DNA of 36,474 bases from Verrucomicrobiota bacterium (GTDB lineage Bacteria; Verrucomicrobiota; Verrucomicrobiia; Opitutales; Opitutaceae), in contig JAPLTN010000071.1 in NCBI GenBank assembly GCA_026398135.1, forward strand, positions 1 through 36,474. The letters run 5' to 3'. Made by a program: the position numbers and the translations under genes. Within the stretch, counting starts at the first letter, position 1. Every line of letters begins with the position of its first letter. The notes under the pieces are model-generated. The model did not search any database, was not told where the DNA came from, and worked only from the letters and a program-made list of their open reading frames with translations. Below, piece by piece: positions 1-6,955 of this stretch.

Positions 1-122
1 GCGTAATCGGCAAGCGTGTGGGCGCGGCCGATGGAAGGGGCCGAGGCGAGCCAATCGTAACGCAGCAGGTCCGGATCCCAGAGGTGAACGTGGGCGTCGG
101 TGAGCAGGCTGATGGGCGGCAT
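1..122 (-). CDS. Amidohydrolase-2 family sugar lactonase, N-terminal 40 residues only
   Basis: The gene starts with ATG at 122 and runs off the left edge of the window. The visible N-terminus contains DAHVHLWDPDLLRYDWL. This matches the opening of COG3618/amidohydrolase_2 proteins such as L-fucono-1,5-lactonase and related sugar lactonases, where the two histidines of HxH are metal or active-site ligands. It lies 36 bp downstream of the symporter gene on the same strand, as the last visible gene of the putative L-fucose operon. Hydrolysis of the lactone made by the operon's SDR dehydrogenase would give the aldonate used by the dehydratase. The substrate is inferred from context, since the family also includes rhamnono-, galactaro- and other lactonases. 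The catalytic C-terminal part lies outside the window. Confidence 0.8.
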   Translation of the reverse strand, partial: MPPISLLTDAHVHLWDPDLLRYDWLASAPSIGRAHTLADY

Positions 123-158: not shown

Positions 159-2087
159 TCAGGCGAATCGGTAGTAGAGGGCACCCATTGCCAGAAAGAC
201 GATCGCGGCCAGGAGCTTGTAGTTGCCAAGACCGGGCCAGCCAGGGGAGCGGAGGCCGTCGAGTGGGCGGGGCCAGTAGAGTTTTTGCGCGTCTTCCGTC
301 GCGCGTTTGGGCACGGCCAAGGTGAATGCGACTTGTATGAGCACGCAGACGACGAACATGTAAAAAGCCATGAGCATGAACGCGGTTTCCGTGAAAAAAG
401 GCGGCACCCAGCCGAAGGCGGCGGGTTGCCACGCGTGGAGGGTTTTTAGGGCGAAGACGACCGCACCCATGAGCGAGCCAAGCCACATCGTCCACTTGGC
501 CCCGTGGGCGGAGGCGGCGGGCCAAAACACGCCCAGGACGAACACGCTGGTTATGGGCGGGGCCATGTGGGCGATGATGTCGTTGAGGCTGTTGAAAATG
601 CTCTCGTAGTGGTCCAGCAGCGGGACGAGCGCGATGCCCAGCCCGATGGAGGCGACGGTGGCGATGCGGCCGATCAGGACGAGCTGTCGATCACCCGTGG
701 CGGGGCGGAAGCGCTTGACCACATCGTAACTGACCAGGGTGGCGATGGAGTTGGATGCGCTGGAGAGGTTGCCCATAAGCGCGGCCATGAGCGCGGCGGC
801 CAGCACCCCGAGCACTCCGACGGGGAGCAACTCACGGATCATGACCGCGTACACTTCCTTGGATTGATAAACGCGCACCTCGGCGGGAGCGAGGATGGTG
901 CCGTCGGCGGATTTCGCGACCGGCACGCCGGGGCCGAGGATGAGGGAGATTTTATCGGCCGCAGGAGTGGCGGGAGTCGTGACGAGGGTGCGCAGGTCGA
1001 GGGTTTCGCCTGCCTTGAGGGTAACGGGGGCGAGGGCGGCGAGGCCGGGAAGATCGCCGGTGACGGTGACGATTTTGACCGCGGCACCGTCCACGGTGAG
1101 GTTTTGTGTGACACGGACCTGGGCGACATTGTCCATACGGCCCTGCTTGACGCTGGTGTAGAGCATGACTCCCGGGACGATGAAAATGAAGACGGGGAGT
1201 ATCTTGATCAGTGCGCAGAAAATGGAGCCCACGCGGGCGTGGTTCTCGTCCTTCGCTCCGAGGACGCGCTGGACGATCGTCTGGTCGGCGCACCAATACC
1301 AGATGCCGAGGACTGGATAACCCAGGAGGATGGAATACCAGGGCATGCCGCTGTCGTCCCCGTGGGGGCGGAGCATGCTGAGCATTTTGGCGTCAGTGGA
1401 GCCGGCGAGGGAGCTGCCGGCGGCCAGGGTTTCGGTCATGCCGGACCAGCCGCCGGTCTTCTGCCAGGCAAAGAACGTGATGAAACACGCGCCGATGAGC
1501 AGGACGATGGTTTGGATGGTTTCGGTGACCGCGACGGCGGCCAAACCGCCCGCCACGGTATAGATGCCGGTAAGGGCGCACATCAGAAGGATGCAGGTCC
1601 ATTTCTCGATGCCCAAAATATCGTGCAGGATGAGCCATCCGGTCGCCAGGGGGAAGGCGATGTGAAAAATGATGGCTGCCAGCACGGAGACGACGGCGAG
1701 CCAGTCGCGGCACTCGCGGCAGTAGCGTTGCTCGAGAAAATCGGGCAGTGTGGCCACTTTGGAGCGAAGGTAAAACGGCGCAAAAAAGAAGCCCAGCAGC
1801 ACGAGGGTGAAGGAGGCCATCCACTCGAAGTTTCCGTTGAGCAAACCGCTGTCGTAGCCGGATTGGGCGAGGCTGACGAGGTGTACGCAGGAGATGTTGG
1901 TGGCAAAGAGCGCCATGCCGATGACCGGCCACTTCAGGGTGTGGGCGGCCATGAAGTAGTCACCCGCCGCCGATTCCCCGCGGGCGGCCCCTTTTTTCTT
2001 GGCGTTGAGTCCGGCCCAGCAACCGAGGCCGACGACACCCACCAGGTAAGCCGCGATTACGATCCAATCCAGTAAACTGATGTGCAT
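159..2087 (-). CDS. Sodium:solute symporter (SSS family), probable deoxy-sugar importer with extra loop domain
   Basis: This 642-residue integral membrane protein resembles SGLT/SSS sugar symporters. The first helix covers about residues 7-25, GDYFMAAHTLKW is at 42-53, and an unwound-helix FATNIS motif is near residue 61. TVAGGLAAVAVTE is near 177, WYWCADQTIVQR at 263-274 and GNLSSASNS at 439-447. SSS carriers take up sugars, vitamins or organic acids by Na+ cotransport. Its place between a fuconate-type dehydratase gene (15 bp gap) and a lactonase gene suggests uptake of L-fucose or a similar sugar. The oddity is residues ~315-410: between PGVMLY and EVYAVMIRELLP, a hydrophilic, Thr/Val-rich, probably beta-structured segment replaces the usual short loop. 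The family assignment is firm; the substrate is inferred. Confidence 0.9.
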   Translation of the reverse strand: MHISLLDWIVIAAYLVGVVGLGCWAGLNAKKKGAARGESAAGDYFMAAHTLKWPVIGMALFATNISCVHLVSLAQSGYDSGLLNGNFEWMASFTLVLLGFFFAPFYLRSKVATLPDFLEQRYCRECRDWLAVVSVLAAIIFHIAFPLATGWLILHDILGIEKWTCILLMCALTGIYTVAGGLAAVAVTETIQTIVLLIGACFITFFAWQKTGGWSGMTETLAAGSSLAGSTDAKMLSMLRPHGDDSGMPWYSILLGYPVLGIWYWCADQTIVQRVLGAKDENHARVGSIFCALIKILPVFIFIVPGVMLYTSVKQGRMDNVAQVRVTQNLTVDGAAVKIVTVTGDLPGLAALAPVTLKAGETLDLRTLVTTPATPAADKISLILGPGVPVAKSADGTILAPAEVRVYQSKEVYAVMIRELLPVGVLGVLAAALMAALMGNLSSASNSIATLVSYDVVKRFRPATGDRQLVLIGRIATVASIGLGIALVPLLDHYESIFNSLNDIIAHMAPPITSVFVLGVFWPAASAHGAKWTMWLGSLMGAVVFALKTLHAWQPAAFGWVPPFFTETAFMLMAFYMFVVCVLIQVAFTLAVPKRATEDAQKLYWPRPLDGLRSPGWPGLGNYKLLAAIVFLAMGALYYRFA

Positions 2088-2102
2088 AAACAGAGGTCTG
2101 GG

Positions 2103-3326
2103 TTAGGGGTGAAGATCCGAAGACAGCCCGGGGTCCTGCGGGGTGGCGTAAACGCCGCCCTCGACATGCACGGGGTGGATGAACTGTTTGCGCAGATGCG
2201 GGATGTGCTCAAGAAAGACGGCGGGCAGGTCGATCCCGATGTGATTAAACAGCACAAGGTGCTGATGGATCTGGCCCATGTCCCCGACATGGGGAACCAC
2301 CGGGACGCCGAATTTTTTACTGAGCAGACTGACGACGAGGAACTCGCTGACTCCGGCGACGCGCACCGCGTCCACCTGGATAAAACCGGCGCAGCGCAGC
2401 TGAAGGTAGTTTTTAAATATGACGCGGTTCGGCACGTGTTCGCCCAGGGCGAGCTTCACCGGGGCGATGGCGTCGGCGAGGGTGCGGTGGCCGACGATGT
2501 CGTCGGGGTGGGTGGGCTCCTCAATCCAGAACGGATTGATGGCGGCGAGCCGGGCGCATACGTCGAGCGCCTGCGGAAGGGTCCATTGCTGGTTGGCGTC
2601 CACCATTACGCGGGCCGAGTTGCCGGCCACCTCGCGGACGATGTGGGCGCGGCGGATGTCGCGTTCGGGGTCCTTGGCTCCCACCTTGAGTTTCATGGCG
2701 GTGAAGCCGGCGTCGAGGGCGCGTTTGCAGTTCTCGCGCACCTGGTCATCGGAGTAGTTGAACCAGCCCACGGACGTGTCGTAGCCCGGGTAACCGGCTT
2801 TGAGAACCGGCAGGCGCGACGAGCGAGTCGGTCGTGCGCGGCGCAGAAGCTCGACGGCCTGACTGGCCGTGAGCTCGTCCTCCAGATAGGAGAGGTCGAG
2901 GGTCGCGACGAGTTGCTCGTCCGCAAGATCAAGCAGCAACTGCCAGAGCGGCACGCCGCGGCGCTTGGCCCAAAGGTCCCAGCAAGCATTGGTTACCGAG
3001 GCAAGGGCCAGCTGTACGACGCCCTTGTGCGGGCCCAGCCAGCGGAACTGCTGTTCGTCGGCCATGGCATGTTGAATCCGGCCGAAGTCGGCCATGATTT
3101 GTTCGATGTCGAGGCCCACCAGGCGTTCGGCATAGAAGGCGGCGGCACGGCAAACCAAGTCGTTGCCCTCGCCCAGAGTGAAGGCGAGTCCGTTGCCCGT
3201 GAGCCCGGAGTCGTCGTGGAGCAGGGTGACGGCATAGGAATAGACCGGGTCCTTGTGGATGGCGTCGGAGCCGTGGCCGGAGCCGATGGGGTAGCGCGCG
3301 TCGCGAGTGGAGATTCGAGTAATCAT
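2103..3326 (-). CDS. L-fuconate dehydratase-like enolase-superfamily enzyme
   Basis: This 407-residue protein belongs to the mandelate racemase/enolase superfamily. Visible active-site elements are a KxK motif at K212/K214 (AMKLKVG), metal ligands D243 (VMVDANQQW), E270 (IEEP) and E296 (GEH), and the acid/base pair D319 and H346 (VPHVGD). The stretch GYPGYDTSVGWFNYSDD at about 178-194 and GDMGQIHQH are typical of L-fuconate dehydratases, which convert L-fuconate to 2-keto-3-deoxy-L-fuconate. These enzymes are usually about 430 residues; this one ends slightly earlier. It sits between the SDR gene (51 bp gap, including a run of ten G) and the symporter gene (15 bp gap). A neighbouring acid-sugar specificity cannot be excluded by eye. 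Confidence 0.88.
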   Translation of the reverse strand: MITRISTRDARYPIGSGHGSDAIHKDPVYSYAVTLLHDDSGLTGNGLAFTLGEGNDLVCRAAAFYAERLVGLDIEQIMADFGRIQHAMADEQQFRWLGPHKGVVQLALASVTNACWDLWAKRRGVPLWQLLLDLADEQLVATLDLSYLEDELTASQAVELLRRARPTRSSRLPVLKAGYPGYDTSVGWFNYSDDQVRENCKRALDAGFTAMKLKVGAKDPERDIRRAHIVREVAGNSARVMVDANQQWTLPQALDVCARLAAINPFWIEEPTHPDDIVGHRTLADAIAPVKLALGEHVPNRVIFKNYLQLRCAGFIQVDAVRVAGVSEFLVVSLLSKKFGVPVVPHVGDMGQIHQHLVLFNHIGIDLPAVFLEHIPHLRKQFIHPVHVEGGVYATPQDPGLSSDLHP

Positions 3327-3377
3327 GGTGACAAAGCGGGTGGTTAAACGGGGGGGGGATTCGGCCTGGCTGGCTGC

Positions 3378-4139
3378 TCAGCGGCGGTAGCCGATCTCGG
3401 CGCCGCCCGAGACGTGCATGATGTGCCCGGTGATGAAGCGGGCTTTTTCCGAGACGAGGAAAACGGAGGCGTCCGCGATCACGTCGCCCTCCGGGCAGTA
3501 ACCGAGGGGATGAATCTCATCGAGGTAGCGGTTGATTTTCGCCGGGTCGGGCTGCTCGGCGCTCCACTTGCGCAACATCGGTGTCCAGGTGCCGGCCGGG
3601 CAAACCGCGTTCACCCGCACGCCGTAGGGCGCGTAGTCGAGGGCCATCGACTTGGTGAGGGTGTTCATGGCGCCCTTGGTTGCGGTGTACGCGGCGTGGA
3701 TTTCCTGGCCGATCACCCCCACCAAGCTGGAAGTATTCAGGATATTGCCCTTCGTCGTTTTGAGTGCCTCCAGCCCATGGCGCGTGGTGTGGAGCACGCT
3801 GCGCAGATTGATGTCGAAAAGCGCATCCCACTCGGTGTCCGTGGTTTCATGTAACGGTTTGCTCGGGGTGGCGATACCGGCGTTGTTGTGGATGCAATCC
3901 AGCCGCCCATAAACTGAAAGTACCCGCTCAATGGCGGCTTTGACTTCGGCGTCTTTGGAGACGTCGCAGGCGAAACCGATATGCCCCTCGCCGAGTTCGC
4001 GGGCGGTTTCCGCCGCTGCCTGGCCGTCACGAGCTACCAAGGCTACGCGCGCGCCCTCCTGGGCATAGGCGATGGCGCAATCGCGACCGATGCCGGTGGA
4101 TCCACCGGTGAGAAAAATAACTTTGCCAGTAAGGAGCAT
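3378..4139 (-). CDS. SDR-family dehydrogenase, probable L-fucose dehydrogenase
   Basis: This is a 253-residue classical short-chain dehydrogenase. It has the cofactor motif TGGSTGIG at 11-18, NNAG at 85-88, N111, S137/S138 and the catalytic YxxxK at Y151/K155. ATG 4139 is chosen because it places the first beta strand (KVIFLTGG) at the N-terminus; a longer in-frame extension upstream would run through the operator and lacks family character. In the operon it would oxidise L-fucose (or a similar sugar) to the lactone, the first step of the non-phosphorylating route. It is the promoter-proximal gene, directly opposite the GntR regulator. The enzyme class is firm and the substrate is contextual. 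Confidence 0.85.
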   Translation of the reverse strand: MLLTGKVIFLTGGSTGIGRDCAIAYAQEGARVALVARDGQAAAETARELGEGHIGFACDVSKDAEVKAAIERVLSVYGRLDCIHNNAGIATPSKPLHETTDTEWDALFDINLRSVLHTTRHGLEALKTTKGNILNTSSLVGVIGQEIHAAYTATKGAMNTLTKSMALDYAPYGVRVNAVCPAGTWTPMLRKWSAEQPDPAKINRYLDEIHPLGYCPEGDVIADASVFLVSEKARFITGHIMHVSGGAEIGYRR

Positions 4140-4163
4140 GGAATGGAGGGGGTGTAATAAAAT

Positions 4164-4174
4164 TTGTCGGACAA
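4164..4174. promoter_or_regulatory. Putative GntR operator, perfect inverted repeat
   Basis: TTGTC-G-GACAA is an 11-base perfect palindrome around a central G. It lies in the 82-bp gap between the divergent SDR gene (start 4139) and the GntR gene (start near 4222). FadR-subfamily GntR regulators commonly bind short palindromes of this type, so it is the natural operator for both directions. A half-site-like TTGTC recurs at 4200-4204. Confidence 0.65.
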
Positions 4175-4221
4175 CTACTTTTTCTTCGCAAGAACTATTT
4201 GTCTGGTTTCGAGTGGTGTGC

Positions 4222-4950
4222 GTGAAGAAGACCCGAAAATCGAAAACCCCGCCGGTGGGAGAACGTATCATCGCCGAACTTGAGGCGAAAATCATTGGGG
4301 GAATTTATCAAGCTGGCGATCGTATCCCCACCGAGGAGCGGCTGGTGGCCCTTTATGCGGCCAGTCGGGCCGCCGTCAGGGAAGCGGTGCAAGTGCTGAA
4401 GGCGCGCGGCCTGGTGGTGAGCCGTCGTGGCAGCGGCAGTTATGTGGCGGCGGACGCAGGAGCGCAGCCTCTGGGGGATTCGCTGGAACGTTATGCCGCC
4501 CTCCGCAGTGACGCGCAGACCTATCTGGAGCTGCTTGATTTGCGGTTGATGGTGGAGTCTTTTTGCGTGCGCCAATTGGCGCTCAAGCCCAATCCGGCCG
4601 CCTTGGCGCGGATGCATGCCTGCATGGAGAGGATGAGGGCTGCGAAAGAGGATCTGCGTCGGTTCGGCGAGGAGGATATTTCGTTTCATCAATCGATCGT
4701 CGAAGGGGCTGGTCACCTCTTGTTTGGCACCATTTACCGGGGATTGATGCCTCATATCGGGCGTCGCTTTGCCCAGCTGACCTATACGGACACCGCTTTG
4801 GTTGGGCAAAGAATGGCGGACCATGGTGCTATTTTGCAGGCAATAGCAGACGGAGATGCGGCGGGGGCCGAAGCCTGTTTACGGACACATCTGATCTCGT
4901 CCCGGGAAAACTTTGAAAAAACCCTGGATGCGGTGGATAAGCCTGTATAA
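4222..4950 (+). CDS. GntR/FadR-subfamily transcriptional regulator
   Basis: This regulator has about 242 residues. The N-terminal winged helix-turn-helix is clear: GERIIAELEAKIIGG, TEERLVALYAASRAAVREAVQVL, then the wing GLVVSRRGSGSYV. A helical FCD ligand-binding domain follows, with LLDLRLMVESF and FHQSIVEGAG, and later histidines (about DHGAIL and RTHL) that would coordinate the metal used by FCD regulators. No good ATG is present. GTG 4222 is preferred, with GTG 4213 or 4216 also possible. It is divergent from the sugar operon across the TTGTCGGACAA site, so it probably represses the operon until a pathway intermediate binds. The effector is unknown. Confidence 0.87.
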   Translation: MKKTRKSKTPPVGERIIAELEAKIIGGIYQAGDRIPTEERLVALYAASRAAVREAVQVLKARGLVVSRRGSGSYVAADAGAQPLGDSLERYAALRSDAQTYLELLDLRLMVESFCVRQLALKPNPAALARMHACMERMRAAKEDLRRFGEEDISFHQSIVEGAGHLLFGTIYRGLMPHIGRRFAQLTYTDTALVGQRMADHGAILQAIADGDAAGAEACLRTHLISSRENFEKTLDAVDKPV

Positions 4951-5764: not shown

Positions 5765-6955
5765 TCAACCGCCGAGTTCAACGTGCGGGTTGACGTCGGC
5801 GTCGTAATCAATGCCCGGCACACCAAAGCCGAAGAGCTTCAGGAACTCCGTGCGGTAGCCGGCGATATCCGTCAAAGCGGAAAGGTTTTCGGTGCACACT
5901 TCGGGCCAGAGTTTGGCCACCGCCTCCTGCACGTCGGGTTGCATCTCCCAGTCGTCGATGCGCACGCGGCCGGCGTCGTCGAACAGGAGGCCGGTGCCAT
6001 CATACATTTGGGTGCGGTAGAGACGGTCGATCTGCTCGATGCAGCCCTCGTGGTTGCCCTTGGCCTTCATGACCTTGTAGAGCATCGAAATGTAGAGCGG
6101 CACCACCGGGATGGCCGAGCTGGCCTGGGTGACGAGCGCTTTGTTGACCGAGATAAAGGCGCGTCCGTAGCCGTTGCACTTGAGGGTGGCGTTGATGGAT
6201 TTGGCGGCGCGTTCGAGGTCGTTTTTGGCCAGGCCGATGGTGCCGTTTTTGTAAACCGGCCAGGTGACCGCCGGCCCGATGTAGGAGTAGGCGACGGAGG
6301 TGGCGCCGGGGGCGAGGAGTTTGGCCTCGTCGAGGGCGTTGATCCACATTTCCCAGTCTTCGCCACCCATGACGGCCTGGGTGTCGGCGATCTCGGTTTC
6401 GCTGGCGGGCTCGATGGTGATCTCGGAGACGATGCCTTTGTCGGTATCGACCGTCTTGTTGGTGTAGGATTGGCCGACGGGCTTCAGGGTGGATTTGTGG
6501 ACGACGCCGGTCTTGGGGTGGGTGCGGCGGGGGGAGGCCAGCGAGTAAACGATGAGGTCAACCTGCCCCAGGTCGGCTTTGATGGCGGCGAGAACCTCGG
6601 TTTTGAGCGCGTCGGAGAAGGCGTCGCCGTTGAAGTTTTTGGCGTAGAGGCCGGCGGCTTTGGCGGCTTTGGTGAAGGCGGCGCTGTTATACCAGCCGGG
6701 AGTGGCGGTTTTGTCGGGTTCGGAGGGACGCTCGAAAAACACGCCGATGGTCGCGGCACCGGAACCAAAGGCGGCGGCGATGCGGGAGGCGAGGCCGTAG
6801 CCGGTGGACGCGCCGATCACGAGGACCTTTTTTGGGCCTTTCGGGAGCGGGCCTTGGGCTTTTACGTAGGCGATCTGCTCGTCGATGTTGGCGGCGCAGC
6901 CGGCGGGATGCGCGGTGATGCAGACGAAGCCTCGGACTTTGGGTTTGATGACCAT
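5765..6955 (-). CDS. fabV: Enoyl-ACP/trans-2-enoyl-CoA reductase FabV
   Basis: This 396-residue protein matches FabV/TER reductases over its length. It opens MVIKPKVRGFVCITAHP and has a Rossmann cofactor segment KKVLVIGASTGYGLASR (42-58) and FFERPSEP. The family's diagnostic Tyr-x8-Lys catalytic pair is Y235...K244 (YKNGTIGLAK). FabV catalyses the NADH-dependent last reduction of fatty-acid elongation and is a triclosan-tolerant alternative to FabI; close relatives act on crotonyl-CoA. The length is typical of the family. It begins 44 bp after a small membrane-protein gene on the same strand and ends at a strong terminator, so it may be the last gene of a four-gene unit. Whether ACP or CoA is the natural substrate cannot be told from sequence. 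Confidence 0.95.
   Translation of the reverse strand: MVIKPKVRGFVCITAHPAGCAANIDEQIAYVKAQGPLPKGPKKVLVIGASTGYGLASRIAAAFGSGAATIGVFFERPSEPDKTATPGWYNSAAFTKAAKAAGLYAKNFNGDAFSDALKTEVLAAIKADLGQVDLIVYSLASPRRTHPKTGVVHKSTLKPVGQSYTNKTVDTDKGIVSEITIEPASETEIADTQAVMGGEDWEMWINALDEAKLLAPGATSVAYSYIGPAVTWPVYKNGTIGLAKNDLERAAKSINATLKCNGYGRAFISVNKALVTQASSAIPVVPLYISMLYKVMKAKGNHEGCIEQIDRLYRTQMYDGTGLLFDDAGRVRIDDWEMQPDVQEAVAKLWPEVCTENLSALTDIAGYRTEFLKLFGFGVPGIDYDADVNPHVELGG

Follow-up and report, generated by a model that had tools for sequence, protein, structure and literature searches.

The symporter P0001 carries a predicted beta-rich domain, inserted in extracellular loop 4 (EL4) between core TM7 and TM8, which is restricted to one Verrucomicrobiota clade among the compared homologues. 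It is a protein of 642 aa from the SSS family (Pfam SSF), recognized by its open reading frame and profile matches, and its gene occupies positions 159–2087 (minus strand, stop codon included) of a window of 36,474 nucleotides, by which we mean the whole stretch of DNA analyzed. Alignments and models place the inserted domain in residues 312–412 (101 aa; positions 852–1154, minus strand). We tentatively propose, with a probability of roughly 0.45, that it provides a moving gate loop with an additional lid or a brace.

P0001 scores above the curated thresholds of both Pfam SSF (216.4 bits; cut-off 22.8) and TIGR00813 (278.6 bits; cut-off 184), the best-scoring stretch stopping at residue 312 or 324. 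A PDB sequence search aligned human SGLT2 (E = 3e-78) and SGLT1 before and after an interruption at approximately residues 309–410, and also found vSGLT; P0001 is homologous to these SSS/SLC5 sugar symporters on either side of the loop. Between the aligned blocks SGLT2 has 28 residues (335–362), whereas P0001 has 101 (309–409). The AlphaFold model of P0001, computed with 40 sequences (mean pLDDT 82.8, pTM 0.84), is predicted to adopt a LeuT-type fold matching SGLT1/2, vSGLT and SiaT, with SGLT2 as the best structural match of the full model (TM 0.75/0.82). Residues N64, H69, E88, Y264, W265 and K295, which correspond to substrate or gate positions of SGLTs, are identical in all 15 insert-bearing homologues. 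As an SSS protein, P0001 is taken to be an importer coupled to a cation.

A preliminary description of this DNA had claimed a hydrophilic insertion of about 95 residues at positions 858–1145 (minus strand; residues 315–410). Such a segment does exist, located between the modelled helices 281–314 and 409–420, and alignments of P0001, and also of a short-loop relative, to SGLT1/2 assign the insertion site to EL4. Its supposed extracytoplasmic placement agrees with the SGLT1/2 alignment, since the TM7–TM8 loop is extracellular and gate-closing in the published excerpts on which we draw; from this loop position we infer that the domain lies over the vestibule. Loop length was counted over the stretch equivalent to P0001 residues 312–412 in 113 homologues (116 rows minus three copies; some rows are cut by contig ends). 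It amounts to 96–103 residues in 15 homologues, 81 and 87 in two, and 11–30 in the remaining 96. The 69 short-loop homologues with at least 50% identity have loops of 23–28 residues (mean 26.7), so the net gain in P0001, with its loop of 101 residues, is about 75 residues rather than 95. The segment is also mildly hydrophobic (GRAVY +0.30) and not hydrophilic; its best 19-residue window scores 1.48 versus 2.19 for TM8. It is indeed rich in Thr and Val, with 13 V and 11 T among 96 residues. The short loop ascribed there to other SSS sugar transporters is true of close relatives only: among 14 distant SSS proteins selected deliberately, 13 have an equally long stretch of unlike sequence at this place.

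The fold of the insert was predicted in two ways. In the model of P0001 the ten-residue mean pLDDT over residues 311–410 is 58–86, and strands are predicted at 321–332, 335–345, 355–358, 380–384 and 404–408. The loop modelled alone, using 13 related sequences, yielded matching strands (mean pLDDT 80.4, pTM 0.68). At moderate confidence, these five strands favor the beta structure proposed earlier.

Outside SSS proteins, and in Pfam and the PDB, no convincing relative of the insert came to light. Pfam gave no match to the insert in any of the 13 insert-bearing sequences searched; Foldseek with the insert model returned a best match at E = 0.21 and VIA-align a best Z of 5.4, inside the noise range stated for that tool, and no Ig-like or carbohydrate-binding fold appears among the matches listed by the two programs. 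Retroviral integrase cores, which make up most of the VIA-align rows shown, were set aside (Z ≤ 5.4), and 2p4g, the sole PDB sequence match of the insert profile A3 (E = 1.4), was taken as chance. Several matches to the insert alone were discarded as well: the non-SSS loci L033–L037 (E from 9e-4 to 0.013, within a longer list reaching E = 1), whose longest frames are unlike an SSS transporter, and the weak matches L046 (E = 1e-3) and L050 (E = 0.009), whose long frames are likewise unlike one. The insert does not behave as a mobile repeat: a DNA search of its own genome with the insert region gave a full-length match only to itself, the other 45 matches spanning at most 84 bases (40 scored of 205 first-look candidates). 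Trp is absent from the insert in all 15 insert-bearing homologues, and each has at most two Phe and two Tyr.

A search with the insert alone found it in two of 252 family genomes, two further matches (E of about 1e-3) being other proteins; a phylum search found it in four of 387 genomes, one further match being another protein. A profile built from 13 rows detected it in five of 384 class genomes, each time in an open frame of 641–679 codons (inspected in all but G834), and two of 15 genus genomes, some of them incomplete, possess the long-loop form. Among the best 80 of 159 relatives, scanned with two peptide patterns taken from the insert-bearing alignment, 12 bear the insert. The lineages represented are Opitutaceae, Verrucomicrobiaceae, Terrimicrobiaceae, Spartobacteria, Akkermansiaceae/Akkermansia and one unplaced Verrucomicrobia bacterium.

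In a tree of 53 of the 113 homologues, calculated with the loop columns left out, all 15 insert-bearing sequences form one clade (support 100/100), and in all 200 bootstrap trees of these 53 rows the insert label switches a single time; the run warned of long branches outside this clade. Together with the genome searches, the tree bears out a restriction of this particular beta-rich domain to one lineage of Verrucomicrobiota. The preliminary description was to be refuted by a segment shared among many SSS transporters; this objection applies only in a weaker form, since long loops do recur at the same place but their sequences are unrelated.

Both forms coexist within the genus and even within one genome. 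A paralogue on contig C84 of the window's own genome has a loop of 23 residues and is 57% identical to P0001 overall (62% over the first half). Transporters of the genomes G002, G004 and G008 also have 23-residue loops; that of G008 follows an SDR gene and an 87%-identical dehydratase gene, an order shared with the window. Within the genus, the transporter in this slot has thus been swapped or unequally retained. A comparison of positions 159–4295 of the window with loci L003, L004 and L005 shows that the slot next to a dehydratase 87–88% identical is occupied either by the long-loop transporter or by a short-loop one with 56–59% identity to it. In the window's genome the short-loop transporter is located elsewhere than the dehydratase slot.

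Several distant SSS proteins aligned with P0001 straight through the loop, and for this reason 14 SSS loci were fetched on purpose. Thirteen of them (L174, located on contig C47 of the window's own genome G000, L175–L179 and L181–L187) have 97–116 residues in the stretch equivalent to 306–419, compared to 114 in P0001; the fourteenth has 36. By eye, the long stretches are of at least three kinds. They share the insertion site and approximate length with P0001, whereas their sequences are unlike its insert and, on visual inspection, contain more charged residues and more Ala. A split SSF match with 81–93 codons between its parts at the loop was observed in six of 62 SSS loci from four genomes: two of six in G000 (one being P0001), two of six in G394, two of 22 in G034 and none of 28 in G059; these counts were taken from the match rows, and an undivided match can mask an expansion.

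Another kind of EL4 insert is represented by the two loops of intermediate length (81 and 87 residues), L070:4963–5202 and L072:6901–7158, belonging to a Planctomycetota and an Akkermansiaceae symporter. They are 26% identical to each other (E = 1e-7) and, while located at the same site as the P0001 insert and approximately of its length, show no resemblance to it, the flank alone aligning. In the tree L070 stands beside two short-loop Planctomycetota sequences and L072 has no firm place; the two do not group. To judge by these sequences, EL4 is a recurrent expansion site in SSS proteins, and the beta-rich kind found in P0001 is clade-specific among the sequences searched. Longer EL3/EL4 loops are reported for yeast APC transporters (PMC7687128, in excerpt); among the papers listed by literature searches, no title or opening of an abstract describes an EL4 domain insertion in SSS proteins.

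Selection on the insert was estimated from eight pairs of insert-bearing genes, which are not independent. The dN/dS ratio is 0.03–0.32 for the insert and 0.03–0.095 for the rest of the gene, and it is higher for the insert in six of the eight pairs. The insert evolves faster than the rest of the protein yet is kept under purifying selection. Twenty positions are invariant in the 13 aligned insert-bearing sequences, and the flank S-K-E-V-Y is unchanged in all of them; L049, not included in this alignment, lacks the D of a T-G-D motif, one of the 20 positions.

The gene neighborhood of P0001 is that of L-fucose catabolism, as is that of some relatives. The gene P0002 (positions 2103–3326, minus strand) encodes an L-fuconate dehydratase-like protein of the enolase superfamily, identified by Pfam and a PDB sequence search; it matches L-fuconate dehydratase 1yey over its full length (residues 3–407; E = 2e-106) and ENOSF1 4a35 (E = 2e-110). 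P0004 (positions 3378–4295, minus strand) is an SDR dehydrogenase according to Pfam, and its true start may lie near position 4139, since the SDR domain begins near residue 53; the NCBIfam L-fucose dehydrogenase model matches it with a score under the cut-off. A gene at positions 1–122 (minus strand) is cut by the window edge after its first 40 codons; its product, assigned by eye, is probably an Amidohydro_2 protein, with Pfam support coming only from genes adjoining the relatives L062 and L063.

Some relatives are flanked by genes for SDR, dehydratase, Amidohydro_2, FAA_hydrolase, Alpha_L_fucos and rhaM proteins and an AraC-type regulator. Eight queries were used to count neighbors at 13 insert-bearing loci, several of which end early with their contig, and at 66 short-loop loci. 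An SDR gene is present at 10/13 versus 61/66 of them, a dehydratase at 8/13 versus 60/66, a fucosidase at 5/13 versus 40/66 and an AraC regulator at 9/13 versus 0/66. The query L060 ADH matched 8/13 versus 1/66 loci; however, seven of those eight matches cover only its first part, and in L066 and L067 the partial matches lie out of frame over a Pfam-called rhaM mutarotase gene, for which reason the query was not counted as a dehydrogenase. In the query itself (L060:8017–9357) the Pfam match to zinc alcohol dehydrogenase starts no earlier than residue 131; as its first part matches rhaM in another frame, the annotated start is probably wrong and rhaM may underlie it.

From this neighborhood, the substrate of P0001 is probably L-fucose or a close methyl-pentose. 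Both long- and short-loop forms sit in fucose loci, and L-fucose uptake is therefore likely for both; the domain is thus not needed for the pathway and represents an addition within one substrate class. Against an L-fucose importer of the SSS type, fucose uptake in marine Verrucomicrobiota has been assigned to fucP proton symporters and not to SSS proteins (PMC8857213, in excerpt).

We favor a lid or brace because the core TM7–TM8 loop is reported to help close the outer pathway in related transporters: in PutP it contributes to the closing (PMC7918813), and in SiaT the loop helices collapse into the vestibule upon closing (PMC5931594). This is the same loop that harbors the insert in P0001, and the excerpts of these two papers used here describe no added EL4 domain. 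We hypothesize that the enlarged EL4, bearing a lineage-specific, beta-rich periplasmic domain that adds about 75 residues net, would fold over the outer vestibule as the transporter closes; the domain could then alter the ease of outer-gate opening and what reaches the gate, or else stabilize EL4. A separate sugar-binding module appears less likely. Against a lid, short-loop relatives occupy the same kind of fucose locus, the domain model is built on 13 related sequences, and a nearly neutral loop that is merely tolerated could likewise show the faster evolution of the insert and its length range of 96–103 residues.

In the main rival reading, the beta-rich insert is a passenger of a tolerated EL4 expansion that folds stably and otherwise hardly affects transport. 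The multiple unrelated ways in which EL4 became long (the L070/L072 kind, the 13 of 14 distant SSS proteins and the six of 62 split loci) and the elevated dN/dS in most pairs speak for this reading, which we consider somewhat less likely than a lid. Against it, every sampled member of a clade drawn from several Verrucomicrobiota families has the insert, which retains the 20 invariant positions (apart from the single departure in L049) and is under purifying selection. It is unlikely that the domain instead docks a periplasmic partner, such as a fucosidase, a binding protein or an outer-membrane component, which would deliver sugar to the symporter. Its periplasmic position, its rapid evolution relative to the rest of the protein and the fucosidase gene adjoining some insert-bearing loci would suit such a role, but fucosidase genes are also frequent beside short-loop transporters. 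The neighbors that do favor insert-bearing loci, the AraC regulator and the L060 ADH query, separate Verrucomicrobiota from mostly Bacteroidota at the same time; neither product looks periplasmic, and the query matches are largely partial as described above. A docking partner is presumably absent. The sugar-sensing or carbohydrate-binding domain of the preliminary description is the least probable of these readings. Its presumed location above the vestibule and the predicted beta-rich structure would suit such a module, but the structural matches stay at noise level, Pfam recognizes nothing in the insert and aromatic residues are few, so this role finds no support.

In LeuT-fold transporters EL4 moves as part of the outer gate. 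P0001 and its relatives form a natural family in which the hinge either has or lacks an added domain; the matched forms serve one kind of pathway, occur side by side even within a single genome, and so offer a ready test of how far the loop governs affinity, rate and access. Given the altered sodium sites of the clade, the same set could help to find out which ion site is required for sugar coupling.

The sodium sites themselves differ from those of SGLT2, where the Na2 site is formed by the backbone of A73, I76 and A389 and the side chains of S392 and S393, and the Na3 region comprises D201, A395 and S396 (PMC10803289, in excerpt). Residues 439–443 of P0001 (G-N-L-S-S; positions 759–773, minus strand) in core TM8 align with SGLT2 S392 and S393 and with residues 394–396 of the Na3 region: S392/S393 are replaced by G439/N440 and A395/S396 by S442/S443. 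The acidic residue of the Na3 region, D201, corresponds to E189 (positions 1521–1523, minus strand). E189, G439, N440, S442 and S443 occur in all 15 insert-bearing homologues, while the 69 close short-loop and both mid-loop homologues have E, S, Q or T, S or A, and G at the same positions. The Na2 pair of Ser/Thr hydroxyls, usual but not essential for SSS proteins, is therefore absent from the insert-bearing sequences, in which a Na3-like set (E189, S442 and S443) is complete; in the 69 close short-loop homologues the first Na2 Ser persists and the second Na3 Ser is missing. In SiaT, Ser342Ala and Ser343Ala lose transport; a conserved Na2 site is found in 54.2% of 39,612 family sequences, and 45 of the 39,612 "curiously" have Na3 without Na2 (PMC5931594, in excerpt). 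N440 might still coordinate sodium, and the change in the insert-bearing clade is a lead and not a result.

One could speculate that this clade re-engineered its coupling, which would then depend solely on Na3 or on a different ion, while the EL4 domain partly replaces the Na2 sodium in the outer gate, but we find this improbable. Seven short-loop SSS proteins (L152, L153, L155, L156, L158, L021 and L024) have Gly at the first Na2 position, so this Gly is not tied to the insert, and the insert as a cause of Na2 loss is weakened accordingly. The insert-bearing clade is, moreover, a single evolutionary event, which argues against a tight link between insert and Na2. A similar alteration is known from the SSS domain of CbrA, in which the PutP Na2 residues are likewise not conserved and which is reportedly stimulated by a proton gradient (PMC7918813, in excerpt); unlike P0001, that domain is fused to a sensor kinase.

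Elsewhere in the window (positions 5765–35757), Pfam recognizes a trans-2-enoyl-CoA reductase, anthranilate synthase I, an SIS/GATase protein, a GlgC-like nucleotidyltransferase, a sigma-54 response regulator, RibD, a 624-aa GreA/GreB-domain protein and RsmB/F, as well as a CrtC lipocalin protein adjoining an FtsX/MacB permease.
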